From positions 1 through 20,221 of IMG/VR virus record IMGVR_UViG_3300042486_000313: a stretch of 20,221 bases of DNA; one strand, written 5' to 3'. A program made the translations under genes and the position numbers. Source of the DNA: a virus. The notes beneath the pieces are model-generated. The model had not been told where the DNA came from. It made no database searches and saw only the letters and a program-made list of their open reading frames with translations. Below, piece by piece: positions 141 through 19,940 of this stretch. Every line of letters begins with the position of its first letter. The first letter of the stretch is position 1.

Positions 141-605
141 ATGGCAGCACCGAGGGGTAATTTATTTGCAATTGGTAATACAGGCGGCAGACCGCCGCTA
201 TTTACTAATCATGAGGACTTAGCATCGAAGATCGCAGCCTATCTTGACTGGGAGGATGAGAACCGTGGTAATGATGCAAAGGGTGTAGGGAAGGGGCTTT
301 ACACTATTTCCGGCTGTGCTTTGTTTTTGGGATTTGCAAGCAGACAATCGTTTTATGATCTCGAAAAAAGAGATGAGTTTTCTTACATCATGCAGCGATT
401 TAAGCTGTTTATGACTCACTGGAATGAACAGAAACTGTACTATATGGGTACTTTCCCCGGCTCTAAGCTATGGTTAACCAACTTCGCCGGGTACACCGAA
501 GAAACAACTCAGACTGTCCGTAACATCACAGAGGTAAAGCCGGAGGTAGTTATGACTGATGCACCTAAATTCGCATCCAGAGAAAGCGAGGTTGACGGCT
601 TGTAA
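141..605 (+). CDS. Phage terminase small subunit (gp3-like)
   Basis: A 154-residue protein that should bind the phage packaging site and recruit the large terminase. The sequence begins GNTGGRPPLF, then has an acidic aromatic helix (AAYLDWEDENRG), a segment reading TISGCALFLGF with SRQSFYDLEKRDEFS, and a late GSKLWLTNFAGY. These match, in order, the features I know from the P22 gp3-like DNA-packaging family, where the last block usually reads ALKNxGW. It lies directly upstream of the large terminase, sharing the A of TAATG, which suggests translational coupling. The start is preceded by ACATACT with no Shine-Dalgarno site. Assignment rests on family resemblance plus position. Confidence 0.88.
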   Translation: MAAPRGNLFAIGNTGGRPPLFTNHEDLASKIAAYLDWEDENRGNDAKGVGKGLYTISGCALFLGFASRQSFYDLEKRDEFSYIMQRFKLFMTHWNEQKLYYMGTFPGSKLWLTNFAGYTEETTQTVRNITEVKPEVVMTDAPKFASRESEVDGL

Positions 606-1774
606 TGTTTAAAACGTCCGGCTTATATCTTGAAAACCTGAATGAAACCGCTGACATTGTAATTGATCAGGGTGGTACTCAATCAGGTAAGACGTACTCA
701 CTTATGCAAGTGCTTTCGAGCAAGGCTGTAAGTGAGTACGATAAGGTTATAACCGTAGTTGGTCAAGACATTCCAAATCTTCGCGCCGGTGCATTGCGCG
801 ATATGCAGACGGTAGTACGTTCGTCTGTTGAGTTACAATCGCTTATCAGTGGTTATAACGCTACAACACTCACCTATACGTTTAACTCCGGTTCTATTAT
901 GGAGTTTAAGTCCTATGGTAATGCACAGGACGCTCACAGCGGTAAGCGCGATTACTTATTTATCAACGAAGCCCCCGGCGTAAGTTGGCAGATTTCTGAG
1001 CAATTAATTGACCGTACCCGTACACGCACCTACATTGACTATAATCCATCCGCCGAATTTTGGGTACATGACAAACTGATTAATAGTAAGTACGGTGATA
1101 AATCAACTCGTTTGATTATTTCCGACCACCGCCACAATCCCTTTCTTTCTCAACAACAGCATGACCATATTGAAGCCAAAGCAGTGCAAGACCCGGCATG
1201 GGGGCGCGTTTATGCACGGGGCTTAACCGGTAAGATCGAAGGGTTAATCTTTAGCCGATGGTCTGTTGTTGATGCGATTCCGAAGGATGCAACTTTTGTC
1301 GGGCGTGGCCTCGACTTTGGTTTTACAAATGATCCGACTGCTGTTGTTGAGGTGTATAAGCAAGATGGTAAGTTGTGGATTAATGAGGTGCTTTACGAAC
1401 GCGGATTAACCAATACAGACATCGACAAACGCCTGATGTCTTTAGGTATTAACAAGTCAGAAAATCTTATCCCCGATTCTGCTGAACCGAAAAGTATTGA
1501 AGAACTCACCCGGTTAGGATGGTATTGCACCGGGGCTTTGAAAGGAGCAGACAGCGTTAAGAATAGTATTGATACTTTGCAACGTTACGAATTGTGCATT
1601 ACGAAAAATTCCGCTAACTTGCGGCGTGAGATCGGCAAGTATAAATGGATTGTTGACCGCAATGGTCGCACACTTAACGAACCGGTGGACTTCGACAATC
1701 ACGCAATTGATGCACTGCGATACGTTGCATTGAACAAACTCCGCCACGCGGGCGGACATATTGAAATGAGATGA
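605..1774 (+). CDS. Phage terminase large subunit (ATPase/nuclease)
   Basis: A 389-residue packaging motor that translocates DNA into the prohead and cuts it. The N-terminal ATPase has a Walker A motif GGTQSGKT at residues 23-30, a Walker B-like DYLFINEA at 116-123 with catalytic Glu122, and a DYNPS motif at 145-149 typical of the coupling motif. The C-terminal RNase H-fold nuclease shows LDFGFTNDPTA around 236-246, an acidic DSAEPK at 291-296, and DNHAIDALRY at 364-373. All three expected acidic clusters are present, so it should be active. Length is slightly short for the family but complete. It overlaps the next gene by ATGA. Confidence 0.96.
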   Translation: MFKTSGLYLENLNETADIVIDQGGTQSGKTYSLMQVLSSKAVSEYDKVITVVGQDIPNLRAGALRDMQTVVRSSVELQSLISGYNATTLTYTFNSGSIMEFKSYGNAQDAHSGKRDYLFINEAPGVSWQISEQLIDRTRTRTYIDYNPSAEFWVHDKLINSKYGDKSTRLIISDHRHNPFLSQQQHDHIEAKAVQDPAWGRVYARGLTGKIEGLIFSRWSVVDAIPKDATFVGRGLDFGFTNDPTAVVEVYKQDGKLWINEVLYERGLTNTDIDKRLMSLGINKSENLIPDSAEPKSIEELTRLGWYCTGALKGADSVKNSIDTLQRYELCITKNSANLRREIGKYKWIVDRNGRTLNEPVDFDNHAIDALRYVALNKLRHAGGHIEMR

Positions 1775-2361
1775 GCAACATCACCATACAACAATTCCAA
1801 AGGGTTTACGCCGCATACATGGCCGATGACTATTTAGAGCCAATCGACCGTAATTTAGCCGTTGTGGCTGCATTGTACGGAAAGCCTGTTGAGTGGGCGG
1901 AATCATTGCCCACCAATAAGCTGTACAAGTACGCAAAACGCGCTACCGAGATCGCCACGCACAACGCGAAACCACTACACGCGCTATCTGTTTGGATTGG
2001 TTGTGTTTGTTATACAATTCGCATCAGTCCGAAATCTTCAACGGTTGCACAGCAGCGCGTACTCGAAACCTGTCGAAGCGAAGAACACGGCGGCTATGTG
2101 GCTAATATGCACCTTGCTTTGTCTGCACTATCTGAACCGGGTAAGTTGTTTGGTTTATTTCCGATAAAAGAAACACCTGAACGGCGGGCGGCAAAGTTCC
2201 AAAAGAAAATGCCGTTCCGCCGCGCTTTAGGTTATGCGCTTTTTTTTTGCGAACTACCGACGAACTTATCGGTAGCTATGGATTTGGAGGTTCAGAAGAA
2301 AGCAAAGGCGGTAACGAACTCGATCCTGAAGCGCAAAAGAAAACTACTATCTCAGCAGTAG
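1771..2361 (+). CDS. Tail assembly chaperone, short (G-like) form
   Basis: A 196-residue protein read without frameshifting. I infer a tail-assembly chaperone from the gene design: a long frame, a homopolymeric slip site about 80% of the way through (T9 at 2240-2248) and an overlapping -1 frame that continues to 2492. This is the classic G/GT arrangement in long-tailed phages, where the short form is abundant and the long form recruits tail tube subunits to the tape measure. The protein is helical, with an N-terminal QQFQRVYAAYMADDY and a basic C-terminus (ILKRKRKLL). It is placed right after the terminase and about 4.3 kb before the tape measure, which is unusual. I cannot name a sequence family with confidence. 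Confidence 0.7.
   Translation: MSNITIQQFQRVYAAYMADDYLEPIDRNLAVVAALYGKPVEWAESLPTNKLYKYAKRATEIATHNAKPLHALSVWIGCVCYTIRISPKSSTVAQQRVLETCRSEEHGGYVANMHLALSALSEPGKLFGLFPIKETPERRAAKFQKKMPFRRALGYALFFCELPTNLSVAMDLEVQKKAKAVTNSILKRKRKLLSQQ
2240..2275 (+). promoter_or_regulatory. Programmed -1 ribosomal frameshift signal
   Basis: Nine T residues occupy 2240-2248; in the zero frame they read CTT TTT TTT TGC, containing the X XXY YYZ heptamer T TTT TTT at 2241-2247. After a 6-nt spacer (2248-2253) comes a perfect 7-bp hairpin: CTACCGA 2254-2260, loop 2261-2268, TCGGTAG 2269-2275. Slip site, spacer length and stem match the known layout for -1 frameshifting, and the -1 frame leads to a plausible C-terminal domain. 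Transcriptional slippage on nine T would give a similar product mix. Confidence 0.75.
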
Positions 2362-2492
2362 CCGCTCGTTTCGGCATTGATTACACAATTCACGTACTTA
2401 GTGCCGGTGATCGTACTAAGTGGGGTTATTATTATGAATTAAACTTTGTGGCGTATTTGAACTATCTTAGTATGCTGCAAGAAATGGAGTAA
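2247..2492 (+). CDS. -1 frameshift extension of tail chaperone (GT-like C-terminus)
   Basis: The second part of the chaperone gene lies in the -1 frame. After slipping on the T run, ribosomes would read 159 residues from 1771 and then 81 more here, a product of about 240 residues. The frame has no ATG near its beginning, so independent initiation is unlikely. The extension has an acidic, Gly/Ser-rich linker (GFGGSEESKGGNELD) followed by a compact region ending ELNFVAYLNYLSMLQEME, consistent with a flexible linker plus a small T-like domain. Stop at 2490-2492. An indel in the T run, from sequencing or mutation, is the main alternative. Confidence 0.68.
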   Translation: MRTTDELIGSYGFGGSEESKGGNELDPEAQKKTTISAVAARFGIDYTIHVLSAGDRTKWGYYYELNFVAYLNYLSMLQEME

Positions 2493-2494
2493 TC

Positions 2495-2675
2495 ATGGAA
2501 TCAATTAAAAGCCTGAAAATTCAACGCCTCGAAATATTGAAAAAAAATATTATCGCCAAGTATTAAATACGAAGAACGCTTAATTTTACGGTGCGATATT
2601 TTTGCTGTTGAAAAAAAGATAGGATCAATGGAAAATGAAATTAATCAATGGCCGACCCGATTGACAAATACTTAG
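2495..2675 (+). pseudogene. Small helical protein gene with frame break at an A8 run
   Basis: An ATG at 2495, 2 bp after the chaperone stop, opens MESIKSLKIQRLEILKKN and stops at 2564-2566 after only 23 codons. If one A of the A8 run (2540-2547) is skipped, the frame continues as ILSPSIKYEERLILRCDI and onward to TAG 2673-2675, giving a charged helical protein of about 59 residues. The second half looks coding: it has heptad-like spacing and ends 28 bp inside the next gene, like other junctions here. It may be a recoded gene, a recent frameshift, or a homopolymer sequencing error. Function unknown; a small structural or assembly protein is possible from context. Confidence 0.45.
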
Positions 2676-3187
2676 CCGAATTAGGGCAGCGTCTGGTTAA
2701 TGAGTTAACCGCGAAACTTGATCAGAAAGGTAAGGTTGCATCTGGCAATCTTCGCCAGTCAATCGGTTATAAGGTTGTGCGAAATGGTGACGAATTAGCC
2801 TTTCAGATCACAGCGGATGAATATTACCAACAGGTTGATAAAGGGCGCGGCAAGTCAACGAAGAAAGGCGATAAACCACTAAGCGCCATTATTTATGAGT
2901 GGATAATTCGTAAGGGTATTCCTGTTGGTGAACTTACCCGCGCCGGTGCTGCTAAAAAGTTTGGAGGCCGCAAAAGATTACGATCACTAATTGAGAATCG
3001 CCGCCGGGGCATGGCGTTTGCGATTGCCCGAAAGATTCATAAACGTGGTTACAAAGGCTCAAACTTTTGGAGCGAAGTAGTGAACGAGGAACTGTTAACG
3101 CAAGTTGAAAAGGAGATAGCCCTACTGTTTAGGGTTCAAATTCAAGCTACGTTAACAGATGGCAATAACAATACATCAGCAGCCTAA
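2648..3187 (+). CDS. HK97 gp10-like tail/neck completion protein
   Basis: A 179-residue basic protein. After an N-terminal helix (IDKYLAELGQRLVNELTAKL), residues 28-40 read GKVASGNLRQSIG, the 'tG.L+.Si' signature of HK97 gp10-like minor tail/neck proteins, followed by beta strands (ELAFQITADEYYQQVDKG), as in that fold. Such proteins join head and tail or complete the tail end. The C-terminal half is rich in Lys and Arg (KKFGGRKRLRSLIENRRRG) and longer than the minimal family domain. It overlaps the broken small gene upstream and the tail gene downstream by 28-29 bp. Family call is fairly good; exact position in the virion is inferred. Confidence 0.7.
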   Translation: MADPIDKYLAELGQRLVNELTAKLDQKGKVASGNLRQSIGYKVVRNGDELAFQITADEYYQQVDKGRGKSTKKGDKPLSAIIYEWIIRKGIPVGELTRAGAAKKFGGRKRLRSLIENRRRGMAFAIARKIHKRGYKGSNFWSEVVNEELLTQVEKEIALLFRVQIQATLTDGNNNTSAA

Positions 3188-4409
3188 CAGTTATACACCG
3201 GCACATAATCCGGTGGTTTACGTGGCTTCGTCAACGAATAACACGCAGCCGAATTTCTTTTATCTGTTCGACGTTTACATCAACGGCGCTGCGTCTTATT
3301 CAGCCCGCATAGCTTCGCCGTCGCATCCTGTTCACGGTTCGCAGTATTGCGACGTGTCTGCCGTTGTTTCGTCGTTTTTGGCAGCGTCTTATTCAACTCC
3401 CGGCGCTTCGTTTGAAACGCACGGCAATACGATGCTGTGCGACGTTGTGGTGCGTATTGGTGAGCGTTACGACATGTTCGGGGTGTCAACTGATTTTCCG
3501 AACTTAGCGGACTCAGTAAAAGTGTATTGTTTTCATGCAGCCATTAAACCGCGTGAATATGAGGCGTGGGATAGTGCAGATTATTTACCCGATACAAATA
3601 CGGTTTCGTTTCTTACTGATATGCCAGACTTGTTGACTGTTTCTGACGATCAACACGGATGGCTAAGTTTTATTTATCGCGGGTTTGGTTCGGGCGGCGA
3701 ACGCGCAAAGTATGCGGAGGTAAGCACGTTCGACAATACAGGTGCACTAATTGCTACAACTCGAATAATAAACAACAACTCAACCATAACAACAAACGCA
3801 CAACGTTTTCAAACTTTCCCATTTGCGCCCCGTTCGCTCAACCTAATTCCGGGCGCGGACATTGTTATTGGTACTCAACCGATTATAACCGCGAATACGC
3901 ATACTTATACGATTAACCTACTTTCATCGGCTCTGGCACAAACAACCGAAGAGCGTTCGTTTAAAGTTAATCGCGATTGCAATCCGTTCGGACAGGCTGA
4001 AATACATTGGTTAAACCGGTTTGGTGGTTTTGATTCATTCAGCTTCAAAGCCCGTGTTGATGAACCTACCGAAGTGGCCATGCAAACATACCAACGGCCA
4101 GAGGGTGAGTTATCCGCAACGGCATGGGATTACGATGCTTCGCGCCCGACATCGCTGCAATACAGCACAATGATTAAGAACGGGCTAATAGTGCATACCG
4201 GTTACCTGCGCGATGCAGAGGCGCGTTATGTGGCCGATCTGGTATTATCTCCATTGCACTATCTGATGTTGCCAGATGGTGAGGGCACACGCGTTCCGTT
4301 AACACTTAAAACGCGAACCATTGCACCGCAATCAACAATAGCAAACGGACGTGTTATGTACGTCTTTGAGTTCACGGTACGTAACGAATACACAGCGCAA
4401 CGCCAATGA
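3159..4409 (+). CDS. Putative tail-tip/baseplate structural protein
   Basis: A 416-residue, beta-rich, Asn/Thr/Ser-rich protein with no signal peptide. It begins ITIHQQPNSYTPAHNPVVYV and carries a conspicuous CNPFGQAEIHWLNRFGGFD at residues 274-292. I associate this pair of features (an 'N-P-V-Y-V-A-S-S' opening and 'W-N-G-G-D-F') with structural proteins of Bacteroidota phages found next to the tail protein that follows here, but I cannot name a characterised member. The start ATG lies 29 bp inside the gp10-like gene, and the stop overlaps the next start (ATGATG). A distal tail or baseplate role is inferred from position before a large tail protein and the tape measure. Confidence 0.55.
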   Translation: MAITIHQQPNSYTPAHNPVVYVASSTNNTQPNFFYLFDVYINGAASYSARIASPSHPVHGSQYCDVSAVVSSFLAASYSTPGASFETHGNTMLCDVVVRIGERYDMFGVSTDFPNLADSVKVYCFHAAIKPREYEAWDSADYLPDTNTVSFLTDMPDLLTVSDDQHGWLSFIYRGFGSGGERAKYAEVSTFDNTGALIATTRIINNNSTITTNAQRFQTFPFAPRSLNLIPGADIVIGTQPIITANTHTYTINLLSSALAQTTEERSFKVNRDCNPFGQAEIHWLNRFGGFDSFSFKARVDEPTEVAMQTYQRPEGELSATAWDYDASRPTSLQYSTMIKNGLIVHTGYLRDAEARYVADLVLSPLHYLMLPDGEGTRVPLTLKTRTIAPQSTIANGRVMYVFEFTVRNEYTAQRQ

Positions 4410-6820
4410 TGGAGGTAATTATCAACGGCGTATCTTGCCCGGTTTCTGGTGAATTACCAGTTAGCCTTAACTTTCAAGTCAACACAATTAAGACTTTGAA
4501 AGATCGGAAAGGTGCGTTCAGCAAGTCCGTAACCATACCCGGCAGTCCCGAAGTGAAGCGGTTGTTTACTCAGATTTTCGAGATTAATCTTGACGTAACG
4601 AATAACACATCAACACAGTTCAATCCCGATTTCAATCCGAATATTAAAACGCCCTGCTATGTGTACGACGGGCAAACACCGGTAATGGTGGGCTTTGCGC
4701 GATTGATGGAGATTAAGCGAAAGTTTCAACAGCTTGGCGATGTTGAATTTATTGTGCAGATCACGGGTGATAACGCTGATCTGTTTACGCTGCTGAATGA
4801 TTACTACCTGACCGATTGCGATCTGTCTGCATTCGATCACACGTACAACCGTGCAACGATCTTAGCAAGTTGGGTTGCGGCGTTTGGGCAGGGATATGTT
4901 TATCCGCAAATCGACTTCGGCCAAAACAATACCACTAACTGGAATCTCACGCACCACTATCCGGCAGTGTACGCTAAACAGTACATTGATTCAATGTTTG
5001 AACTGGTGAGCCGCCAATACATTAGCGGGTTTTTCACCAGTTCGCCGTTTGAAAATTTGGCTGTACCATTTAACCGGGATAAGTTCGCGCTAACCACGCA
5101 GCAGATGCAAGATAGGGCGGTGCTCGAAGAAATTGGCACAACACAAACCTTTGCAATTGATTCAGTGGCAAGTAGCGTAAACATTGCGCCGCTAATATTC
5201 GATACCGAAATTTATGACATATCAAACCAGTATATCGATACCGGTATAGATGCGGGTAAAATAGTTATCGGTACAATCGGCAGTTATACATTCAGGTGCA
5301 GCCTTACGCTTCGATTTACGCTAACATCTGGCACTGGAAACCCTGCCGGTACATTGTTTATTGTTTACGACAACGGCAGCACACAAACAGCAATAGGCGT
5401 AACACCGTTTTCTTTTGCTTCGTTTGGCGTTGACTATGTTGTCGAGGTGTTTTTCACTTCGCCGATACTAATGCAGCCGGGACATAAGATTTGGGTACGA
5501 CTTGACCCGCATATCAATGACCCGTTAGGTACTGCGCTTGGTGCTGTTGATATTAAAGCCCCGTCGTACTTTCAGGGCGTTGTTGGAAACCCGGCGCTGG
5601 TTGAGGGTTCGCCAGTGTCGATGGCCGCTGTTATTCCGCAAAATATCCGCTGTTCGGATTTCCTGATGTGGCTCTGTCAAAAGTTCAATCTAATGATTGA
5701 GCCGTCACGCGATAATCCGAAAAAGTATGTTATTGAACCGGCGGGCGTGTTTTATGGAAATGATTTTATTGACATGACCGAACAACTCGACGTTAGTTCG
5801 GACTTTGTTCAGAAGCCGATTGGACTACAAACTGGCAAGCGTTTCATTTACCGTGATAAGGCCGATACTGATTACCATAACAAGCTATACAGCGACACCT
5901 ACGGTGAAGTGTACGGGCAGCGTGTAATTGATGTGAATAATGATTTCAGCACAGCCGAACAGATTACAGAAACCGGTTTTTCCCCAACAGTACTTGTTGG
6001 ATATACCGGCCACAATCGCATCTATTCAGCAATCGTAAACGGCAACACGTCCGCGCCAACAAAGCACAATATTCGGCTACTGTACTACGGTGGGCTTGTG
6101 CCGTGTTCTCCTGACTGGATAATGATTACAAATGCGGGCAACTTCAATCACAACACCTATCCGTATGTCGGACATCTGGATAGCATCAACACACCTACGT
6201 TTGATTTGAACTTCGGAATACCACAAGCCCTATACTATCCAACAACCGTTTACACCAATGGAAATTGCTATAACTTATATCATTCCGACTTCGTTTCTGA
6301 GATAACAGACCCCGGCGGCAAGATGGTTGAGGCGATGTTTAACGTGAAGCCGGTACATATTTCAACGCTTTCTTTTGGCCGGTTATGGTATGTTGGTAAT
6401 ACGTTATACCGTCTGCAATCAATCGAGGATTACGACCCTGTAAAACGATTACTAAGCAAGGTTACATTACTCAAAGTAAAGCGCGGTGTTTTATTTTCAC
6501 CACGTACTGCTGAAATATTCGGCGGCGAAGGTAGCAACATCGACGGTGAAGCAGCACCGGTAACAATTGGTTACGTTGATCGCGCCCCGGTTGTGGAGCA
6601 AAGTAGGTACGTCGGGAACGTTGTTGATTCAAACACAGACCGCATATTCATAAACGGTAGCGGAAACCGCGTAGGCTCAGGGTGTAATAACATTACAATC
6701 GACGGTAACAACAACACAATACAGCCGGGCGTAACAGGTGTTACACTTATTCAGTGCGAAGGGTTAACCATAGGTGAATCTGATGCAGTGTATATTAACA
6801 ATCATAAACATCACCCGTAA
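4406..6820 (+). CDS. Large tail-tip protein with beta-helical C-terminal end
   Basis: An 804-residue structural protein. The N-terminus has SLNFQVNTIKTLKDRKGAFS and KSVTIPGSPEVKRLF, a pattern I recognise from Bacteroidota phage tail proteins ('L+.R.G.fS.ti.iPgt..N..lF'). The middle is beta-rich, with two regions that look like jelly-roll or Ig-type modules. The last 65 residues or so form short repeats (FINGSGNRVGSGCNNI, TIDGNNNTIQPGVTGVTL, CEGLTIGESDAVYI) like rungs of a right-handed beta-helix, ending NNHKHHP with an HxH. A tail-tip, baseplate hub or receptor-contact role is likely from position just before the tape measure. The start could be either of two adjacent ATGs (4406, 4409). Confidence 0.65.
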   Translation: MMEVIINGVSCPVSGELPVSLNFQVNTIKTLKDRKGAFSKSVTIPGSPEVKRLFTQIFEINLDVTNNTSTQFNPDFNPNIKTPCYVYDGQTPVMVGFARLMEIKRKFQQLGDVEFIVQITGDNADLFTLLNDYYLTDCDLSAFDHTYNRATILASWVAAFGQGYVYPQIDFGQNNTTNWNLTHHYPAVYAKQYIDSMFELVSRQYISGFFTSSPFENLAVPFNRDKFALTTQQMQDRAVLEEIGTTQTFAIDSVASSVNIAPLIFDTEIYDISNQYIDTGIDAGKIVIGTIGSYTFRCSLTLRFTLTSGTGNPAGTLFIVYDNGSTQTAIGVTPFSFASFGVDYVVEVFFTSPILMQPGHKIWVRLDPHINDPLGTALGAVDIKAPSYFQGVVGNPALVEGSPVSMAAVIPQNIRCSDFLMWLCQKFNLMIEPSRDNPKKYVIEPAGVFYGNDFIDMTEQLDVSSDFVQKPIGLQTGKRFIYRDKADTDYHNKLYSDTYGEVYGQRVIDVNNDFSTAEQITETGFSPTVLVGYTGHNRIYSAIVNGNTSAPTKHNIRLLYYGGLVPCSPDWIMITNAGNFNHNTYPYVGHLDSINTPTFDLNFGIPQALYYPTTVYTNGNCYNLYHSDFVSEITDPGGKMVEAMFNVKPVHISTLSFGRLWYVGNTLYRLQSIEDYDPVKRLLSKVTLLKVKRGVLFSPRTAEIFGGEGSNIDGEAAPVTIGYVDRAPVVEQSRYVGNVVDSNTDRIFINGSGNRVGSGCNNITIDGNNNTIQPGVTGVTLIQCEGLTIGESDAVYINNHKHHP

Positions 6821-8754
6821 TGGCAGATGAAAAAAATATTGCGCTAAACCTTGTTATTAAAGGCGAACAGGGCTTTCAGTCTGTTAAGGAACTTCGGCAA
6901 TACCTGAAAGAACTGAACGCAGCGATGTTACAAATGGGCGATACTTCATCTCAGGAGTTCGCGCAGCTTGCACGTGCAGCAGCAAATGCCCGCGATCAGA
7001 TTGACGGCATAAATGAAAACATTCGAGCGTTCGACCCCGATAACAGGTTTGCGGGTCTGGCGCAGGGCGCGCAAGGTATCGCTAATGGTATTCAGCTTGC
7101 AACTTCGGCAATGGCTCTTTTCGGTGCAGAATCCGAAGATGTGCAAAAAATAATGATGCGCGTTCAGGCGGCAATGGCATTCAGTCAGGCAATATCTCAG
7201 ATCGGACAAATGAAGGGCGCATTCGAGGCATTCAACACCGCCGTGCGAGCCAATCCGATATTAGGTGTGGTTGCCGCAATAATCGCGCTTGCTACTGCCG
7301 CTATTGGCCTTTATGAAGCGTTTAAAAAAGATAGCGAAGCACTACAAAGCGTAAATAAAGAACTTGAACGCGCGAAAAAATTAAACGAAGAACTTGCACC
7401 CGAATACGAACGCCAAGCCAAACTTGCAGAGGCGCAAGGCAAGTCAATGCAGGAGGTTAACGATATTCGGCGCAAAGGAATTGACGTTCAGTTGGCTGAA
7501 ATAAACGCATCTATAAAGGTTCAGGAGGTTAAACTTCGGGAAATAAAAACAAATGATTCTCTTTGGGAAAGCACACAGCGGCTACTTGGTGCAGCACTCA
7601 GATATATCGGACAGGCTGCACAGGCGAATTTAATCGAGCTTGCTATTTTGCAAAACAAAAAAGAAAGAGCCGCCGAAGAAGAAAAGACATTAACCGAGCT
7701 TAACGAAAAGAAAAAAGACCTTATAAATGAAATTGCAATTCTCGCAGCAAACGAAAATAAAGAAGCTGAAAAAAGAGGCGAAGAATATAACGCGAAACAA
7801 AAAGCCCTGCGCGAAAAAGATATTGCCGAACGCCGCAAGTATGCCGGTGAGCGAGTAAAGGCCGAACAGGCGTTGAATGATGAAGTGGCAAAGTTGCAAG
7901 ACGAACGCTTTTTAGCAAACTCGAAAAATGAATTAGACCGTATTGCCCGCGAAGAAGAAATTGCAGTTGCAGATTTCAAACGTCGGAATAAAGGGCTTGA
8001 AGATGAAGAGGCATATTATGAGGGGCTGCGACGTTTGCAGGATAAGTACGGGCGAATGAAGCTACTTGAACAGCAGCGGTTAGCAGATGAATCAATGGCG
8101 CAAATGGAGGCGATACTTGCTGAAGAAACAGCCAAACAAGATGCTTTTTTTGCCGAACGTGCCGCCGCTGAAATAGCAACTGAAAAAGCCATTGCAGATT
8201 CAAAGGCTATGCTTCGCCAATCTTCATTTGCCCTGCTGAATGCAATTGCGGATATGGAGTTAGGTAAAGACAAGGCAAACCAAAAAGCAAAGAAAGCTAT
8301 TGCGCTTGTTGATCTTGCTATTGATACAGGTAAGGCTATTGCAAGTATGACACGCGAAGCGGCGGACGCTGCGGCTAAAGCACAAGCGATTACGCCCGTG
8401 CCCGGTGCAGGTGCAATATTTTATGCCGGTTACTACCTTGCCCGACTTGCCACAATTGCAAAGAATATCGGGCAGGCTAAACGAATACTTGAAAGCGGAA
8501 ACGCAACAAGCGTATCAGGTGACGGCGGCGGCGGGCAAACACCAACAGTAAACGCTCCACAATCATTTACGCCGGTAGTGCCGCCAACAACAACACTAAC
8601 AAGCGGATTAAACACAAACACGCAGCAGCAGCAATCAACGCAAAGCAGCAGTATAGCACCGCCTGCAATGCGGGCGTATGTGCTCGAACGTGACATTACA
8701 AACACACAATCAAACGTATCTATATATGAGCAAAACGCAACATTCACCGGATAA
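6820..8754 (+). CDS. Tail tape measure protein
   Basis: A 644-residue protein that sets tail length and supports DNA passage. It opens with NIALNLVIKGEQGFQSVKEL, then has an Ala-rich helical region, a hydrophobic segment at 145-165 (NPILGVVAAIIALATAAIGLY), a long charged coiled coil from about 170 to 460, a second hydrophobic segment at 525-548, a low-complexity Gly/Pro/Gln/Thr linker at 560-612, and a conserved-looking end from residue 617 (MRAYVLERDITNTQ). This layout matches short tape measure proteins of Bacteroidota siphoviruses. At about 1.5 angstrom per residue it would specify a tail near 95 nm, an inference only. It overlaps the upstream gene by TAATG and the protease gene by 29 bp. 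Confidence 0.88.
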   Translation: MADEKNIALNLVIKGEQGFQSVKELRQYLKELNAAMLQMGDTSSQEFAQLARAAANARDQIDGINENIRAFDPDNRFAGLAQGAQGIANGIQLATSAMALFGAESEDVQKIMMRVQAAMAFSQAISQIGQMKGAFEAFNTAVRANPILGVVAAIIALATAAIGLYEAFKKDSEALQSVNKELERAKKLNEELAPEYERQAKLAEAQGKSMQEVNDIRRKGIDVQLAEINASIKVQEVKLREIKTNDSLWESTQRLLGAALRYIGQAAQANLIELAILQNKKERAAEEEKTLTELNEKKKDLINEIAILAANENKEAEKRGEEYNAKQKALREKDIAERRKYAGERVKAEQALNDEVAKLQDERFLANSKNELDRIAREEEIAVADFKRRNKGLEDEEAYYEGLRRLQDKYGRMKLLEQQRLADESMAQMEAILAEETAKQDAFFAERAAAEIATEKAIADSKAMLRQSSFALLNAIADMELGKDKANQKAKKAIALVDLAIDTGKAIASMTREAADAAAKAQAITPVPGAGAIFYAGYYLARLATIAKNIGQAKRILESGNATSVSGDGGGGQTPTVNAPQSFTPVVPPTTTLTSGLNTNTQQQQSTQSSSIAPPAMRAYVLERDITNTQSNVSIYEQNATFTG

Positions 8755-9427
8755 CATCGCCCTGTTTAATGGGTTGCCAGTTTACATCTCAACCGTTGAC
8801 GAACGGGCAGCGGGCATTGAATTTAATTCATTGGTTGCCTCGCCCGCTGTTCAATACACATGGCAAGCATATAGCGCCGAAAAACCAATTCCTGAAAAAC
8901 AGTTTTTTGCTGACACTGAACGCCGAATAATTACCGGCGTTGCAATGCTTGCTGATACACCTATTTATCGCGTGGATAGGGATAAGGCCGGGAATATTAC
9001 TAAAGAATATTACACCGTTTTTCCCTATGAAGAAACCGAAAAAATATTAAAGATGTTTGTGAAGAATGGTAGGCACAACTATGTCAACGTTGATCACAAA
9101 CGAACTGGGAAAGTTGCCGGTGTTGATGCTGTGCCTGATGGCTTGTATTTATTTGAGTTGATTTTTGTTGACAGTAAGCGTGGCGTATCCGCCCCGTCGG
9201 CATTCAGCGAAGTTCCAGACGGCAGTATAATTACATCGTACTACGTGGAATCAGACGAAGTATGGAATAACCTTGTAAAAGACGGTGTGGTATTGGGTTT
9301 CAGCGTTGAAGGTGAGTTCTTGATGTACCCAAAGGAGAAACAGCAATACAGCGCAGAACTCGCTTTAATCGAATCCATACAGCGCGATATAACAGCGATT
9401 GAACAGCATTTAACCGCCGCAAGTTAA
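8726..9427 (+). CDS. XkdF-like prohead maturation serine protease
   Basis: A 233-residue protein from the ATG at 8726; an upstream in-frame start would lengthen the overlap with the tape measure gene and gives no recognisable sequence. Key features fit the XkdF-like phage serine protease family: IITGVAMLADTPIYRVD at 68-84, the segment YYTVFPYEETEKILKM, a candidate catalytic His124 in NYVNVDHKRTG, and a candidate nucleophile Ser193 in VLGFSVEGEF preceded by SDEVWNNLVKDG. It should trim the scaffold and capsid precursor during head maturation. It is immediately followed by scaffold and capsid genes, as expected. The active-site assignment is by family analogy. Confidence 0.85.
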   Translation: MSKTQHSPDNIALFNGLPVYISTVDERAAGIEFNSLVASPAVQYTWQAYSAEKPIPEKQFFADTERRIITGVAMLADTPIYRVDRDKAGNITKEYYTVFPYEETEKILKMFVKNGRHNYVNVDHKRTGKVAGVDAVPDGLYLFELIFVDSKRGVSAPSAFSEVPDGSIITSYYVESDEVWNNLVKDGVVLGFSVEGEFLMYPKEKQQYSAELALIESIQRDITAIEQHLTAAS

Positions 9428-9461
9428 CACCGATAAACAACATAAATTAAACGTACATACT

Positions 9462-10151
9462 ATGTCCGAAAAATCCTTTCTCACAAATCTACGCCTATCC
9501 ATTGCGCGGGCTGCTGCCGAAATCAAAGGGCAGAAGTTCTACGCAACAATTGACGGCGTAGTGGTTGAACCGGAAGGCGGCGAACTAAAGCCCGGCGTTA
9601 AGCTGATGGTGAAAGACCCGGCAACCGGTGAAATGCTACCCGCTCCAACAGGCGAACACACGCTCGACAGCGGCGAAATTGTTGTAGTTGGTGCTGACGG
9701 CATGATTACAGAGATTAAGCCTAAAGAGGCTGACCCTGCTGCCGATCCCGCCAAAGACCCTGCCGAAATGAATGCACCGCCCGCGCCACCGGCTCAAAAC
9801 CCGTCTGCACTGATTGAGCAGATCACGCGTGAAACCCGTTTCAGTGAAGCTGTAAGCGAAGAGGTGGCTAAAGCTATCCCGAAAATCACAGACGCGATCA
9901 AAGCCACATTTACTGAACTGCTCACAGCAAGTAAAGCCGAAACCGATGCGGTAAAAGCGGAATTTGCTGCTTACAAAACCGAAAACGAAACGGCACTGAA
10001 AGACATTCAGGATCTCGTTGAAAAGATTGCCGAACAACCGTCCGCGCAGTCGTTTAAAGAGGTGAAGAAAAAAACAGATCAAACAGAAAAAGTAAAAGAA
10101 CTTACACCAACTCAACAACGCATCGTTGATCGAGGTGGAAATCTTAATTAA
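9462..10151 (+). CDS. Capsid scaffolding protein
   Basis: A 229-residue acidic protein between the protease and the capsid gene, the normal place for a scaffold. Residues 24-85 form a Gly-rich beta domain (FYATIDGVVVEPEGGELKPG, then PAPTGEHTLDSGEIVVVGAD). A Pro/Ala linker covers 86-114, helical/coiled-coil sequence runs from 115 to 200 (EEVAKAIPKITDAIKATFTE and onward), and the tail is basic (VKKKTDQTEKVKELTPTQQR). Helical core plus basic C-terminus is typical of scaffolds that bind the capsid shell; the N-terminal beta domain is an extra that I have seen in Bacteroidota phage scaffolds. Its leader contains ACATACT just before the ATG. Confidence 0.8.
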   Translation: MSEKSFLTNLRLSIARAAAEIKGQKFYATIDGVVVEPEGGELKPGVKLMVKDPATGEMLPAPTGEHTLDSGEIVVVGADGMITEIKPKEADPAADPAKDPAEMNAPPAPPAQNPSALIEQITRETRFSEAVSEEVAKAIPKITDAIKATFTELLTASKAETDAVKAEFAAYKTENETALKDIQDLVEKIAEQPSAQSFKEVKKKTDQTEKVKELTPTQQRIVDRGGNLN

Positions 10152-10188
10152 TCAACAAACACACCAACAAAAATAAAAACACAATACT
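10152..10188 (+). promoter_or_regulatory. A/C-rich leader of the capsid gene
   Basis: These 37 bases are almost free of G and predicted unstructured, ending AATACT before the ATG. There is no Shine-Dalgarno sequence; in Bacteroidota, A-rich unstructured leaders commonly drive strong initiation. The decamer CAACAAACAC (10153-10162) recurs at 16695-16704 before another start, and ATACT-ATG recurs at 141 and 9462. I see no promoter consensus here, so this is a translation element rather than a transcription start. Confidence 0.5.
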
Positions 10189-11214
10189 ATGCCTGAATTT
10201 GATGTAAGTGCGCTTGTGGCGCACATCGAAGAGTCTGCCGAAGAACTCAAACAGACTATGGTTATGGGTCACGAATCGGCCAATGACTTTGAAGATTACT
10301 ACGGACTTCGCGCCGGGCAAACACACCGCATCGGAACGCACGAAGAAAGTATTTACGAAACCGCGTATAACTGTAACCCGTCAACTAATCAGGGTACAAC
10401 CACACTTGGCAAAGTTGACCTGACTGTTAAGCCGCTCGAATTTTACCGCGATTGGTGTCTTGATGAATTGCAGGAATATTTTATTGCAAAAACACTTCCT
10501 GAAAAAACAGCAAGCGGTGAAGCTGCACAGCAAAGCGCGCTTTTCAAACAGTTCACTGATCGCCTATACCAGCGTATTGATGAACGTCTCGAAGTAGGTA
10601 CATGGCAATCGGTAAACACCGTTAGCGTTCCGCAGGGATATCCGGCTGTTGGTGCTTCAAACTGGGATGAGTACAATGGGGTTCTTCGCACGATTGACGC
10701 GGCAAGCGGTGTGATTAATTCACAAACTGTTGCGGGCACATCGGTAACAAATATCACCCTTGCAAACGCCGTTTCGGTTATGACTGATTACACAATGGGT
10801 ATGCCCATTTTGCTGTTTCAGGCTCACCAGAGCGGCGAAGCCTCAACATATATGGGTTGGGACACATTCCGCATTGTGACTCAGGCTTACATGAATGCAA
10901 ACCAATTCAACTTTTACCCGGATAAGGCCGCGTTGAAAAAGGGTGAACTGGAACTGCCAAGCGGTCTTATTATTAAGGCGCGTATGGGATTGAACAGCGC
11001 AAATGCTCCCGCTGCTGCAAATGCAACTATGCAGGATCGTATCGTTACGTTTAAAAAGACCAACATTGCTAAATCTGCAATGACCGCCGCCGAAGTTAAA
11101 ACACCGGAGGTATGGTATGATAAAGACACCAAAAAACTCAAATTCCGCGCGACTATGTCGGTAGGTTACAAAGAGTTTTTTGGCTCTGAGATTTATATGT
11201 ACAAAAACGCCTAA
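10189..11214 (+). CDS. Major capsid protein
   Basis: A 341-residue protein placed directly after protease and scaffold, of the right size for an HK97-fold shell protein. Early sequence is helical (FDVSALVAHIEESAEELKQT), then a loop-like region and a long segment rich in short strands; residues near LEVGTWQSVNTVSVPQG and MPILLFQAHQSGEASTYMGW look like core structural elements, and the protein ends with VGYKEFFGSEIYMYKNA. The sequence is diverged from the well-known HK97 and P22 proteins, so the call depends on order, size and general resemblance to Bacteroidota phage capsids. It is followed by a strong hairpin, the only clear RNA structure inside the late operon apart from the frameshift signal. 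Confidence 0.82.
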   Translation: MPEFDVSALVAHIEESAEELKQTMVMGHESANDFEDYYGLRAGQTHRIGTHEESIYETAYNCNPSTNQGTTTLGKVDLTVKPLEFYRDWCLDELQEYFIAKTLPEKTASGEAAQQSALFKQFTDRLYQRIDERLEVGTWQSVNTVSVPQGYPAVGASNWDEYNGVLRTIDAASGVINSQTVAGTSVTNITLANAVSVMTDYTMGMPILLFQAHQSGEASTYMGWDTFRIVTQAYMNANQFNFYPDKAALKKGELELPSGLIIKARMGLNSANAPAAANATMQDRIVTFKKTNIAKSAMTAAEVKTPEVWYDKDTKKLKFRATMSVGYKEFFGSEIYMYKNA

Positions 11215-11222
11215 TCCACTAA

Positions 11223-11248
11223 CCGCGTAGCCCCGTAAGGCTGCGCGG
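11223..11248 (+). terminator. Strong hairpin after the capsid gene (partial terminator or mRNA stabiliser)
   Basis: CCGCGTAGCC (11223-11232) pairs with GGCTGCGCGG (11239-11248) over ten base pairs, one of them G-T, around the 6-nt loop CCGTAA. It begins 8 bp after the capsid stop. There is no T run downstream, so it is not a standard rho-independent terminator. It may reduce read-through or protect the 3' end of the abundant capsid mRNA. The stem itself is plain in the sequence; the role is inferred. Confidence 0.55.
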
Positions 11249-11263
11249 TAAACACTTCACGAT

Positions 11264-11782
11264 ATGTGTGTAACCACGCTTACAAACGACTTTACACGCC
11301 CCTGCCGAAAGCATGGCGGCGTTGCTGAAATAAAGGTGCGCCCGTGGGTTGAACCTACAACCGCTGCCGGGTTCGCGCTTACCGCATCGCTTGCTACGCT
11401 TTCTGGTGCCGCATTGGCGGGATGGATTAAGTTGTATTGCGATCTGAAAACCAGCAAAGCAATGTCAACCGGTACAACCAACCGCGAAAACGGTTCGTTT
11501 TTTTGGGCACAGCAGGTGGACTGGAAATATCTCGATTTACCTGTTGAGCTCATCGAAGATATGGCTGATATGATGAAGAACAATGTTCACGTTGCCGTTA
11601 AGACCAACGAGGGCAAATACTATCTGTTCGGCTATAACTACGGCATGGCGTATCAGGGCACATTTGACACCGGCGCGGCTCTATCCGATGCAGTTGCCAC
11701 TACATCAACATTCGTTGGCGAGGAAATCAACTTTCCGGTGTATCGAATTTCTCAGACGGTTTACGACCTGCTCGATCAATAA
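11264..11782 (+). CDS. Putative major tail (tube) protein
   Basis: A 172-residue protein. The opening CVTTLTNDFTRPCRKHGGVA resembles the 'm.C..t.g...pC+d..GGi' start of a Bacteroidota phage structural family that I associate with tail tubes. Later it has DMMKNNVHVAVKTNEGKYYL, FGYNYGMAYQGTFDTGAALS and a strand pair ending FVGEEINFPVYRIS, which suits a beta-barrel tube subunit. Location after the capsid and before a small structural protein and the portal is compatible but not decisive. A head decoration protein is the main alternative. The stop overlaps the next start by TAATG. Confidence 0.55.
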   Translation: MCVTTLTNDFTRPCRKHGGVAEIKVRPWVEPTTAAGFALTASLATLSGAALAGWIKLYCDLKTSKAMSTGTTNRENGSFFWAQQVDWKYLDLPVELIEDMADMMKNNVHVAVKTNEGKYYLFGYNYGMAYQGTFDTGAALSDAVATTSTFVGEEINFPVYRISQTVYDLLDQ

Positions 11783-12174
11783 TGCTGCGAGTTAACAGGG
11801 GTTCAGCTAATAATTTGGCGATGACTGGCACTGAGCGTGTCAGCATCGCCAATCCTGTTTTTCTTTTGCGCCTAAAAAAAGCCGGTACAAATGATGAGTT
11901 CGCGTGTATCGTTGAAGATACTTCACCGAATCCGCTACGCTATAATTTATTTGTACTCACCGAATCAAACACACCCGACCCGCTGAATGCAGATTTAACG
12001 CTGCAAAATGGCCGATATACATATTGGCTTTACGAACAGTCGAGCACAACAAATCTCGATTATAACAACGCAATTTCTGAACTTGAAACCGGTATTTTAT
12101 GGGTCGGAAATCTGAACGTTGATACCGATGTGCAAGTTATAAGTGAGCAACAAACCATCCGTTATGTCGAATAA
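11782..12174 (+). CDS. Small structural protein of unknown role
   Basis: A 130-residue protein that looks like a single beta-sandwich: alternating strands such as NPVFLLRLKK, EFACIVED, RYNLFVLTES, LTLQNGRYTYWLYEQ and LETGILWVGNL. Similar small beta proteins occur in Bacteroidota phages near tail tube and fibre genes, where they are usually annotated as hypothetical. It starts by TAATG coupling to the putative tube gene and ends 11 bp inside the portal gene, so it is co-expressed with virion components. No catalytic motif, signal peptide or membrane segment is visible. I do not assign a function beyond likely virion component. Confidence 0.5.
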   Translation: MLRVNRGSANNLAMTGTERVSIANPVFLLRLKKAGTNDEFACIVEDTSPNPLRYNLFVLTESNTPDPLNADLTLQNGRYTYWLYEQSSTTNLDYNNAISELETGILWVGNLNVDTDVQVISEQQTIRYVE

Positions 12175-14179
12175 AAATAGAGGCAATCAACAACAGCAAC
12201 AAGCGAAACAATCCGGTGTACTCACCGAATTGAAATTTATTGACGTTGAAGTGCCTTTGTTTTACGAAAACCCGGCAAAAGGAGAGTACGTTCAATACGG
12301 TAAGGAAAATGATTATCCGCGCTACTTATTCGATCTCTATAATTCATCGCCACTACACGCAGCCATTGTAAACGGTAAGGTGGATTATATCTGTGCGAAC
12401 GGATGGACGTATAACCGTGACGGCCTGAATGCCGCGCAGATTGCATCTATTGATAAATTTATTACCGGGATAAATCCAAAAACACGGATAGCTGCATTCG
12501 ACGGCGTACTATTTAACTGGATTGCGTTTGAAGCAATTTGGAATAAGGCGGGCACTTCACTCACATTTGAGCACGTTCCTATTTCGGATGTGCGTATAAT
12601 GATTGACCCTGAAACAAAAGACATTACCGGCTATGCTTACACTTCGCAGTGGTACACAATAAGCACAAACGGTGTTCGCAAAAAAAATCCTGCACCACAG
12701 GACGCGCCCGACTTTGTGGAGTTTGGGCTGTTTGATGAAGAAAACAAAACAGGCCGCCAATTACTCGTTTACGTTGCTCCGCTTGTAGGTAGTTACGTTT
12801 ATCCGCTGCCCGAATACTACGCAGCAATTAAAGCAATTGAAACCGATTCGCGTTTACAGCAGTACGACTTAAACGAGGTTGCAAACGGATTTAGTGCATC
12901 GGTAGTGATTAACATTCCGGGCAGCGAATGGAGCGACAAAAAGAAACGGGATGATATGGAGGATACGGTTATGAAAAAAGCATCCGGCGAAACCGGAAAA
13001 CGCTTTCTTCTGAACTTCGTTACCGATCCAAATATGAAAGCGACGGTCGAGACAATCGACCTGCCATCTGTTGACCGCTTTTCTAATACTCAAAAAAATT
13101 CAGAGCGTTCGATATTTACCGCTCACACCGTTACATCACCGATGCTGTTCGGGATCAAAACCGAAGGGCAATTAGGCGGGCGCGATGAAATGGATGTTGC
13201 CGAAGATATATTTATTAAGCGTTATGTATCTGGATGGCAGATGGTGTTGGAGGGTATGATAAATAAGCTTGCAAAGTATGCAGGTGTGCCGGTAACGCTT
13301 ACCCTATCCGATGTAAAGCCAAAGCAAGCTAAAACCATTGAGGCTTTCAGCCAATTACCGCCTATGCTTGCTTCTAAGGTTGCGGAGGCAATGAGTGCAG
13401 AAGAAATACGTGAACTCGTTGGATTGAAAGGCACAGCAACCACGACAACACAAACAACACAAGCGCGGTTTAGTATTGATGTTTCACGCCTTACCGGCAC
13501 AAAGAAACACATCGAAGCATTTAGCAAGCGTGGCCGTTCGCGCAGTGATTTCAGTGTGATTTCAAAACGCGCTGTTGATACCGCCGAATACTCCGACATT
13601 GAAGCCGCTGAAATGCGTTTTGTTTCGGCTTACTTCGATGAAGAAATAGTACTGCACGACTTCGCCGAATCCGGTTCTACAATCACGCTTAAATCAGTTG
13701 ATCGTGTGGTGTTGGATATGCTTTCAAAGTCACCGGCCTTAACTGCTGCTGAAATCGCAAAAGCATCTAAATTGCCAGTGGCCAAAATTGAAGCATCAAT
13801 AACTCAGCTTACTAAGTCGGGTTATTTAAAGTCAGTTGCCGATGGACTTACACCGACAGCAACCGGAAACAAAGTAATTGAACGCGCCCCGGCAAAGACG
13901 GCAGAAATTGAAGTGCTTTATTCGTATGAGGTTGCGCCGGGCATGGGTGCTCCGATACTTCCGAAAGACGAAAACGGAAACGAGCGAACCCGCGAATTTT
14001 GTTACGATCTGATTAAACTTGATCGTATGTACACGAAGGAGGAAATACTTGCAATGGAAAACGACTTCGGCGGCAGCGCGTGGGAGGTTCGCGGCGGATG
14101 GTACACGAAGCCCGGCACAACCATTGCAACACCGCAATGCCGCCATATCTGGATGCAAAACATTGTAACACGTAATTAA
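12164..14179 (+). CDS. Portal protein with C-terminal wHTH-like and Cys/His modules
   Basis: A 671-residue portal, the dodecameric DNA gate of the head. After a Gln-rich N-terminus, residues 30-90 (FYENPAKGEYVQYGKENDYP and onward) and 315-360 (SIFTAHTVTSPMLFGIKTEG) match portal proteins of Bacteroidota phages. Residues 440-475 contain EAFSKRGRSRSDF. Residues 510-565 look like a winged helix (VVLDMLSKSPALTAAEIAKA). The end, 610-668, has REFCYDLIKLDRMYTKEEI, VRGGWYTKPGT and PQCRHIW, a Cys/His-containing module reminiscent of the end of minor head (Mu F-like) proteins. I chose the ATG at 12164; a GTG at 12143 would add seven residues. It lies after, not before, the capsid genes. Confidence 0.82.
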   Translation: MSNKNRGNQQQQQAKQSGVLTELKFIDVEVPLFYENPAKGEYVQYGKENDYPRYLFDLYNSSPLHAAIVNGKVDYICANGWTYNRDGLNAAQIASIDKFITGINPKTRIAAFDGVLFNWIAFEAIWNKAGTSLTFEHVPISDVRIMIDPETKDITGYAYTSQWYTISTNGVRKKNPAPQDAPDFVEFGLFDEENKTGRQLLVYVAPLVGSYVYPLPEYYAAIKAIETDSRLQQYDLNEVANGFSASVVINIPGSEWSDKKKRDDMEDTVMKKASGETGKRFLLNFVTDPNMKATVETIDLPSVDRFSNTQKNSERSIFTAHTVTSPMLFGIKTEGQLGGRDEMDVAEDIFIKRYVSGWQMVLEGMINKLAKYAGVPVTLTLSDVKPKQAKTIEAFSQLPPMLASKVAEAMSAEEIRELVGLKGTATTTTQTTQARFSIDVSRLTGTKKHIEAFSKRGRSRSDFSVISKRAVDTAEYSDIEAAEMRFVSAYFDEEIVLHDFAESGSTITLKSVDRVVLDMLSKSPALTAAEIAKASKLPVAKIEASITQLTKSGYLKSVADGLTPTATGNKVIERAPAKTAEIEVLYSYEVAPGMGAPILPKDENGNERTREFCYDLIKLDRMYTKEEILAMENDFGGSAWEVRGGWYTKPGTTIATPQCRHIWMQNIVTRN

Positions 14180-19400: not shown

Positions 19401-19940
19401 ATGAAAAAGACCTACCTCATCATATTTGCCGCATTTATTGCAGCATCATGCAGTAAAGAACTGCCAGACATTACACCTATTCAGCGTGACGGCGGCGTTG
19501 TTGCTCAAACATCAGAGCAATCACCATTCGCGAAGTATGAATTTATATTTATACCGAACACAACTTGTAATACTTCTATTATTACCGGGCAATACCGGCT
19601 GTTTTATTCAAGTTGCAACAATGCACCGAATGACAATTCGATAACCGCGATTAAAGTTTGGTATCGCGAATACAGATGGACGGCTTGCGTTAATGGCTTG
19701 CCGGTATCGCCCGGCAGCGGATGGGTAATGGTTCAAAACGCCTGTGCCGTATCTGGCCTCTCAAAATGGGTGAAAGCCTCGACAACCTTACCTGCGGGAA
19801 CTTGGCTCAGTATTTGCCTTAACGGGAAACCGGTGAACCCGAATAACGACCCCGATTATATCGGCTTACAGTCAAGTAACTGGGAGTTAATTTACAGTAA
19901 TTGCGGCAATGGGATTGCGTTGTTTTGGCAGTACCCGTAA
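19401..19940 (+). CDS. Phage-encoded lipoprotein (moron-type)
   Basis: A 179-residue protein with a lipoprotein signal: basic MKKTYL, a hydrophobic core (IIFAAFIAAS) and a lipobox ending at Cys17, so the mature form should be lipid-anchored and exported. Six further Cys residues follow. Two segments share the pattern C-[VL]-NG-x-PV-x-P ... W ... C (ACVNGLPVSPGSG and ICLNGKPVNPNND), which suggests an internal repeat and possible disulfides. It has its own promoter region and terminator, the signature of a moron gene expressed by lysogens or early in infection. Superinfection exclusion or host surface change is a reasonable guess, unproven. Confidence 0.75.
   Translation: MKKTYLIIFAAFIAASCSKELPDITPIQRDGGVVAQTSEQSPFAKYEFIFIPNTTCNTSIITGQYRLFYSSCNNAPNDNSITAIKVWYREYRWTACVNGLPVSPGSGWVMVQNACAVSGLSKWVKASTTLPAGTWLSICLNGKPVNPNNDPDYIGLQSSNWELIYSNCGNGIALFWQYP

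Follow-up and report, generated by a model that had tools for sequence, protein, structure and literature searches.

The closest described systems are tail genes in which a -1 shift yields two proteins. In phage lambda the slip site is G_GGA_AAG, and a position directly upstream of the tape measure gene is a usual, if not strictly defining, feature of G/GT genes. A conserved tail-assembly frameshift of long-tailed phages is attributed to Xu, Hendrix and Duda (2004), as cited in PMC5009743. The slip site of P2 E/E+E' is T6G, and that of the P2-like phage Smp131 is T7G (PMC3931495). Two different machines are known to slip in dnaX, where the Thermus gene has nine T and uses transcriptional slippage and the E. 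coli gene uses ribosomal slippage (reviewed in PMC5009743). According to the same review, U_UUU_UUU is a modest -1 ribosomal site in E. coli, weaker than A_AAA_AAG, and runs of nine A or T cause efficient slippage by bacterial RNA polymerase.

The window analysed here is positions 1 to 20,221 (20,221 nucleotides) of IMG/VR record IMGVR_UViG_3300042486_000313, which derives from a Bacteroidota phage. The 3' end of its terminase gene (1774) overlaps the start of a chaperone-like gene (1771), which reads GCG CTT TTT TTT TGC in the zero frame across 2236-2250 (Table 1). The -1 frame is open from 5' of the T run up to its stop codon; the only start codon there is a TTG at its beginning (2247), with no ATG nearby. 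The predicted product of a shift is a 159 aa N-part joined to an 81 aa C-part, giving 240 aa. The original prediction was accurate on these points: the T9 run, the heptamer, the 6-nt spacer and the 7-bp stem lie where it placed them and have the form that it described, and the 81-codon -1 frame without its own ATG does lead to a product of about 240 residues. It also had the zero frame meeting the -1 frame at this site; the two do overlap there, but the zero frame continues for 37 codons past it.

Table 1. Features of the chaperone-like gene and its neighbours, in window coordinates.
Feature	Coordinates	Strand	Description and evidence
Terminase large subunit	605..1774	+	Pfam Terminase_3C 2.4e-14; PHROG 5653 9.5e-30; immediate upstream neighbour
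N-part of chaperone-like gene (G analogue)	1771..2247	+	159 aa including the second slip Phe; ORF, 33-member alignment, AlphaFold2
Zero-frame ORF	1771..2361	+	196 aa product without shift; final 37 codons overlap the -1 frame
T9 run	2240..2248	+	Slip heptamer T_TTT_TTT at 2241-2247, in ribosomal phase
Spacer	2248-2253		6 nt, between heptamer and stem
Perfect 7-bp hairpin	2254..2275	+	Possible local stimulator; present in window, not conserved
-1 frame C-part (T analogue)	2247..2492	+	81 codons plus stop (2490-2492), reached only by shift
HK97 gp10-like tail completion protein (weak)	2648..3187	+	HK97-gp10_like E 0.045 (below cut-off); phrog_5 E 0.028; next downstream gene
Candidate tape measure protein	6820..8754	+	phrog_1538 tail length tape measure E 0.063 (weak); size, composition

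The chaperone-like gene adjoins the terminase gene and is separated from the candidate tape measure gene downstream by about 4.3 kb, not placed directly upstream of it. This place beside the terminase is unusual for a gene of this type, and the placement in prophage L117 is similar. The gene order over 605-14179 is itself unusual: it opens with the terminase, followed by the chaperone-like gene, the tail genes and the candidate tape measure, and closes with the likely capsid (10189) and the portal (12143). Near the end of the record, 19401-19940 encodes a small protein whose signal is of the lipoprotein type (FAAFIAASCSKE); it may be a surface or exclusion lipoprotein.

Relatives were gathered by terminase scans of viral contigs and bacterial genomes, which gave 414 loci with a located terminase (including some contigs fetched twice; counts by distinct context or by cluster remove these duplicates). 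Split loci were identified with profile searches built from the N-part and the C-part. The two parts lie in different frames in 327 of the 414 loci, and the offset is -1 in all of them and +1 in none. Loci with the N-part alone are contig ends, fused genes whose C-part falls below the threshold of the second profile, and seven truncated Mucilaginibacter loci. An alignment of homologues had been proposed as a check on conservation of the run; in the loci gathered here, T6-T10 stands at the junction, with the slip heptamer in phase, in all split loci except two (L059/L220, one sequence). Among 226 distinct contexts whose run has seven T or more, it is T7 in 71, T8 in 11, T9 in 138 and T10 in six, and T6 is found in one further group of seven loci. 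When counted as 68 clusters (<75% identity), the lengths are T6 in one, T7 in 12, T8 in three, T9 in 50 and T10 in two. All runs shorter than nine T start at the third codon position, which places T_TTT_TTY in the P and A sites; runs of nine or more contain the heptamer whatever the phase, and phases are mixed there. Moreover, in an alignment of 33 N-parts that are 14-24% identical to that of the window, the two slip Phe residues are the sole invariant columns. Their codons are almost always TTT TTT, whereas TTC makes up 27% of the Phe codons in the terminases. As judged from these alignments, the conserved frameshift signal is the in-phase T run.

The T9 run is also a rare sequence in these genomes. 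A whole-window scan found no second T9 on the + strand, and there is no other run of exactly nine T in 334 kb (the window plus 41 relatives), in which T7 occurs 30 times, T8 nine times and T11 once. The same T9 is carried by contig L001, which is 99.35% identical to the window over 5247 nt without gaps, and marine contigs recovered by the terminase search, with 58% terminase identity to the window, have an identical layout and T9. An error in the T count, which the original prediction had raised as a possible objection, is contradicted by this recurrence in independent contigs.

T7 runs fall almost wholly within the Mucilaginibacter clade of the terminase tree. Selection for exactly nine T seemed strong elsewhere (25 of 26 clusters outside the T7 clade), and the preference resembled a mark of polymerase slippage, but this selection was rejected as an explanation, since the flanking amino acids, which are hydrophobic in the two frames, and Phe codon usage largely account for the pattern. 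In phase 1 the flanking T's encode V/L/I before the slip codons and Leu/Phe (in the -1 frame) after them; in phase 2 they encode Phe, with TTT used over TTC in 35 of 42 (P = 0.08 at local codon usage). In a GC-rich relative (L059:3300-3400, the same in L220) the -1 split is kept and the junction reads CAT TTT ATC, with no slippery heptamer.

Selection acts on the -1 frame as protein. For a set of nine marine sequences, the pN/pS of the C-part in the -1 frame is 0.12, and the overlap with the zero frame gives 0.15 when read in the -1 frame and 0.92 when read in the zero frame. Two Mucilaginibacter sets behave in the same way, with 0.21-0.23 for the C-part in the -1 frame and, in the overlap, 0.24-0.28 in the -1 frame against 0.81-0.94 in the zero frame. 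Because of this contrast within the overlap, these ratios indicate that purifying selection acts on the -1 frame from the slip site onward and does not act on the zero-frame tail.

A group of relatives, mostly from guts, encodes the protein in one frame of 182-190 residues (L025, from human faeces; L177, a Candidatus Azobacteroides genome; L088, L097 and L098). These fused genes lack the second N-terminal unit and keep the first, together with the C-part; neither a slip run at the join nor a hidden slip site near it was found. Against the PHROG 28240 profile, hhalign gave 93% for the C-part and 95% for the first N-terminal repeat. In the terminase tree, fused and split genes are separated by one change; Bacteroides phages, which form the outgroup, also have a single frame at this place. 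Intact single-frame homologues, the other objection foreseen in the original prediction, are thus confined to a separate gut clade, and the objection fails.

A different arrangement is seen in seven Mucilaginibacter genomes (L111, L114, L116, L118, L125, L139 and L182), where the chaperone-like gene is cut off immediately ahead of the slip site. By comparison with the intact L117, together with L184/L185, the gene continues, clearly in six of them, inside the last prophage gene, which lies about 23 kb away in L117. The breakpoint is near-identical each time, the terminase tree needs seven separate changes, of which at least six are forced, and the C-part was not found elsewhere in these seven genomes. 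The truncations look like a recurrent site-specific deletion. The bacterial-genome matches (L103-L182) are mostly from Mucilaginibacter, and in several of them a YCF48-like host gene, the same each time, adjoins the end of the element; it could be a site-specific prophage or else a GTA-like element kept by vertical inheritance. Another of the relatives, L024 (PP511318.1, Dulem virus 31), is classed as Microviridae, yet it is 35.8 kb long and carries tailed-phage terminase, portal and capsid genes, so that its taxonomy looks wrong.

The identity of the protein was approached by sequence and by predicted fold. Sequence libraries gave no named family for the window protein, a weak match to Phage_TAC_7 (E 0.0098) was seen in one of the 33 N-part family members, and tblastn of the N-parts of the window and two relatives against annotated phages returned nothing useful. 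The AlphaFold2 model of the N-part (pLDDT 87) consists of helices and a small strand element, and that of the C-part has a pLDDT of 70. A Foldseek search with the N-part matched unnamed phage proteins to E 2e-8, including P12024S_38 of Nonlabens phage P12024S, a cultured relative that was recovered by fold comparison alone. Fold comparison of the N-part also gave E 0.024 for one protein named as a tail assembly chaperone and E 2.6 for HK97 chaperone 2ob9, neither of them significant, and the C-part search gave no significant match. The name tail chaperone, used from the outset, is plausible from the G/GT organisation of the gene together with this weak fold evidence; it does not extend to a significant match with a named family.

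Two cultured Nonlabens phages, P12024S and P12024L, likewise have the gene after the terminase, with the same T9 and the C-part in the -1 frame. Both parts were deposited as separate hypothetical proteins with the frameshift unannotated, an annotation that can now be corrected to two parts of one split gene. In Flavobacterium phage 6H (L188) a fold-similar gene on the complement of 10352-10927 ends in an in-phase T6, and the C-part-like -1 frame is preceded by a stop directly after the T6; this phage was left out of the split count.

The hairpin downstream of the run has a stem of CTACCGA (2254-2260) and TCGGTAG (2269-2275), an 8-nt loop and a folding energy of -8.3 kcal/mol. An essential stimulating role, of the kind known from IS elements and retroviruses, would fit its spacing; within the window, 0.7% of positions are followed at 3-10 nt by a perfect 7-bp stem, and the marine group L012 carries a different stem at a similar place (z -2.3). 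Nevertheless, the nearest relative, L027, has no comparable stem, nor do most representatives, and no conserved structure 5-9 nt after the heptamer was found over the 68 clusters. Folding just downstream of the run is only slightly stronger than in shuffles, with a mean z of -0.46 ± 0.17 in 42 representatives and -0.31 ± 0.11 in the 68 clusters, and the 65-nt region with the window hairpin is itself unremarkable against shuffles (z = -1.2). An essential role is doubtful on this evidence; the hairpin, which had been put forward as part of a complete signal, is not supported as a necessary part of it and is not the conserved signal, and it may be an optional local aid in the window. The L001 gene is identical to that of the window and so offers no variation for hairpin covariation. 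No known RNA family matched at the slip site. An intrinsic terminator at the T run was also considered and rejected: the scan called none, and a 4-bp stem before the run is no better than shuffles.

We consider it probable that a programmed -1 ribosomal frameshift makes two proteins from this one gene. Most ribosomes would translate 1771-2361 into a 196-aa G-like protein, and a fraction, holding tRNA-Phe at each TTT codon of T_TTT_TTT (2241-2247), would slip one base back and go on to complete a 240-aa GT-like fusion whose C-part is helical and 81 residues long. If the analogy with lambda G/GT and P2 E/E+E' holds, the short and long forms would serve tail assembly at a fixed ratio. We infer that the ribosome slips and not RNA polymerase, and likewise the product ratio and the chaperone role. 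The ribosome is favoured as the general mechanism because runs shorter than nine T are always in ribosomal phase, and at the T9 of the window, too, it is in our judgement the likely slipping machine. Several points count against a ribosomal reading, namely the weak type of site in E. coli terms, the lack of a conserved stimulator, the nine T of most clusters and the run-less split of L059/L220. RNA polymerase might instead add one U (or lose two) on the T9, so that normal translation would yield the 240-aa protein, as in Thermus dnaX. Nine A or T is a length on which the polymerase slips efficiently (PMC5009743), and T9 is the commonest length (50 of 68 clusters) and occurs in differing codon phases. 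Set against this, 16 of the 68 clusters have six, seven or eight T, all in the ribosomal phase, which a polymerase does not need, and the extra T's of the others are explicable by V/L/I, Leu/Phe and Phe coding. The phase test is uninformative at nine T, where every phase contains the heptamer. Transcriptional slippage, which the original prediction had named as the competing mechanism, therefore loses ground where the runs are short and keeps some at the T9 of the window; overall we regard it as unlikely. It is similarly improbable that the family uses both machines, with ribosomal slippage on six to eight in-phase T and the polymerase, alone or in addition, on nine or ten; were that so, tail genes would have their own equivalent of the two-machine dnaX case. 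The literature examined yielded no account of a tail chaperone ratio set by transcriptional slippage.

Two other accounts dispense with slippage. Separate translation of the -1 frame from an internal start, with no fusion, would be compatible with the TTG at the slip site of the window (2247) and with the annotation of P12024S_39 from an internal ATG, but no start codon is common to the relatives, many of which have none from the opening of the frame to 60 nt past the run. Furthermore, the slip site is where selection on the -1 frame sets in, and the gut relatives encode the C-part fused to an N-terminal part in a single frame, which together make this account very improbable. Homopolymers are error-prone in principle, and a sequencing error or a decaying gene might be suspected; this is refuted by purifying selection in both frames and by the recurrence of the split, which 327 loci share across numerous assemblies and which the deposited genomes of two cultured phages also show.

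Ribosomal frameshifting at the T run remains our preferred reading, and the window gene is a genuine, well conserved member of the known G/GT frameshift kind. The -1 frameshift of this kind that was originally predicted at the run is upheld by the split, its direction and the run itself, all kept in 327 relatives, and by selection on the -1 frame as protein. The Bacteroidota branch of G/GT recoding had apparently not been described before. In it, the frameshift is kept in hundreds of relatives whose proteins otherwise have almost no residue in common. With natural variants of run length and phase numbering in the hundreds, a cultured pair (P12024S/L) and a single-frame sister clade, the family allows tests of which machine is slipping when the T run is long, and of why the short/long pair is dispensable in certain tailed phages.

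Among known families and systems, PHROG 28240, a group of unknown function that holds the fused gut relatives, resembles the window gene in its profile match and its place after the terminase, and differs from the split genes in having one frame, no slip run and no second N-part repeat. The likeness to dnaX is that one gene gives two proteins at a homopolymer and that relatives have different slip sites; however, dnaX is a cellular gene, and the Thermus run acts in RNA polymerase. P2 E/E+E' and Smp131 share with the window gene a T-run slip site, the -1 direction and a tail gene, and the weak Phage_TAC_7 match of one of the 33 members (E 0.0098) is a possible link between the proteins; they belong, however, to P2-like myophages of Proteobacteria and have shorter runs. 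With lambda G/GT there is no detectable sequence relation, the slip site here is a T run, and the gene stands beside the terminase, with some 4.3 kb between it and the candidate tape measure, in contrast to the lambda type directly before it. In organisation, nevertheless, the two agree: each is a small late-region gene with a -1 shift near its end, and each specifies a short and a long protein with a common N-part, the long form adding a small C-part.
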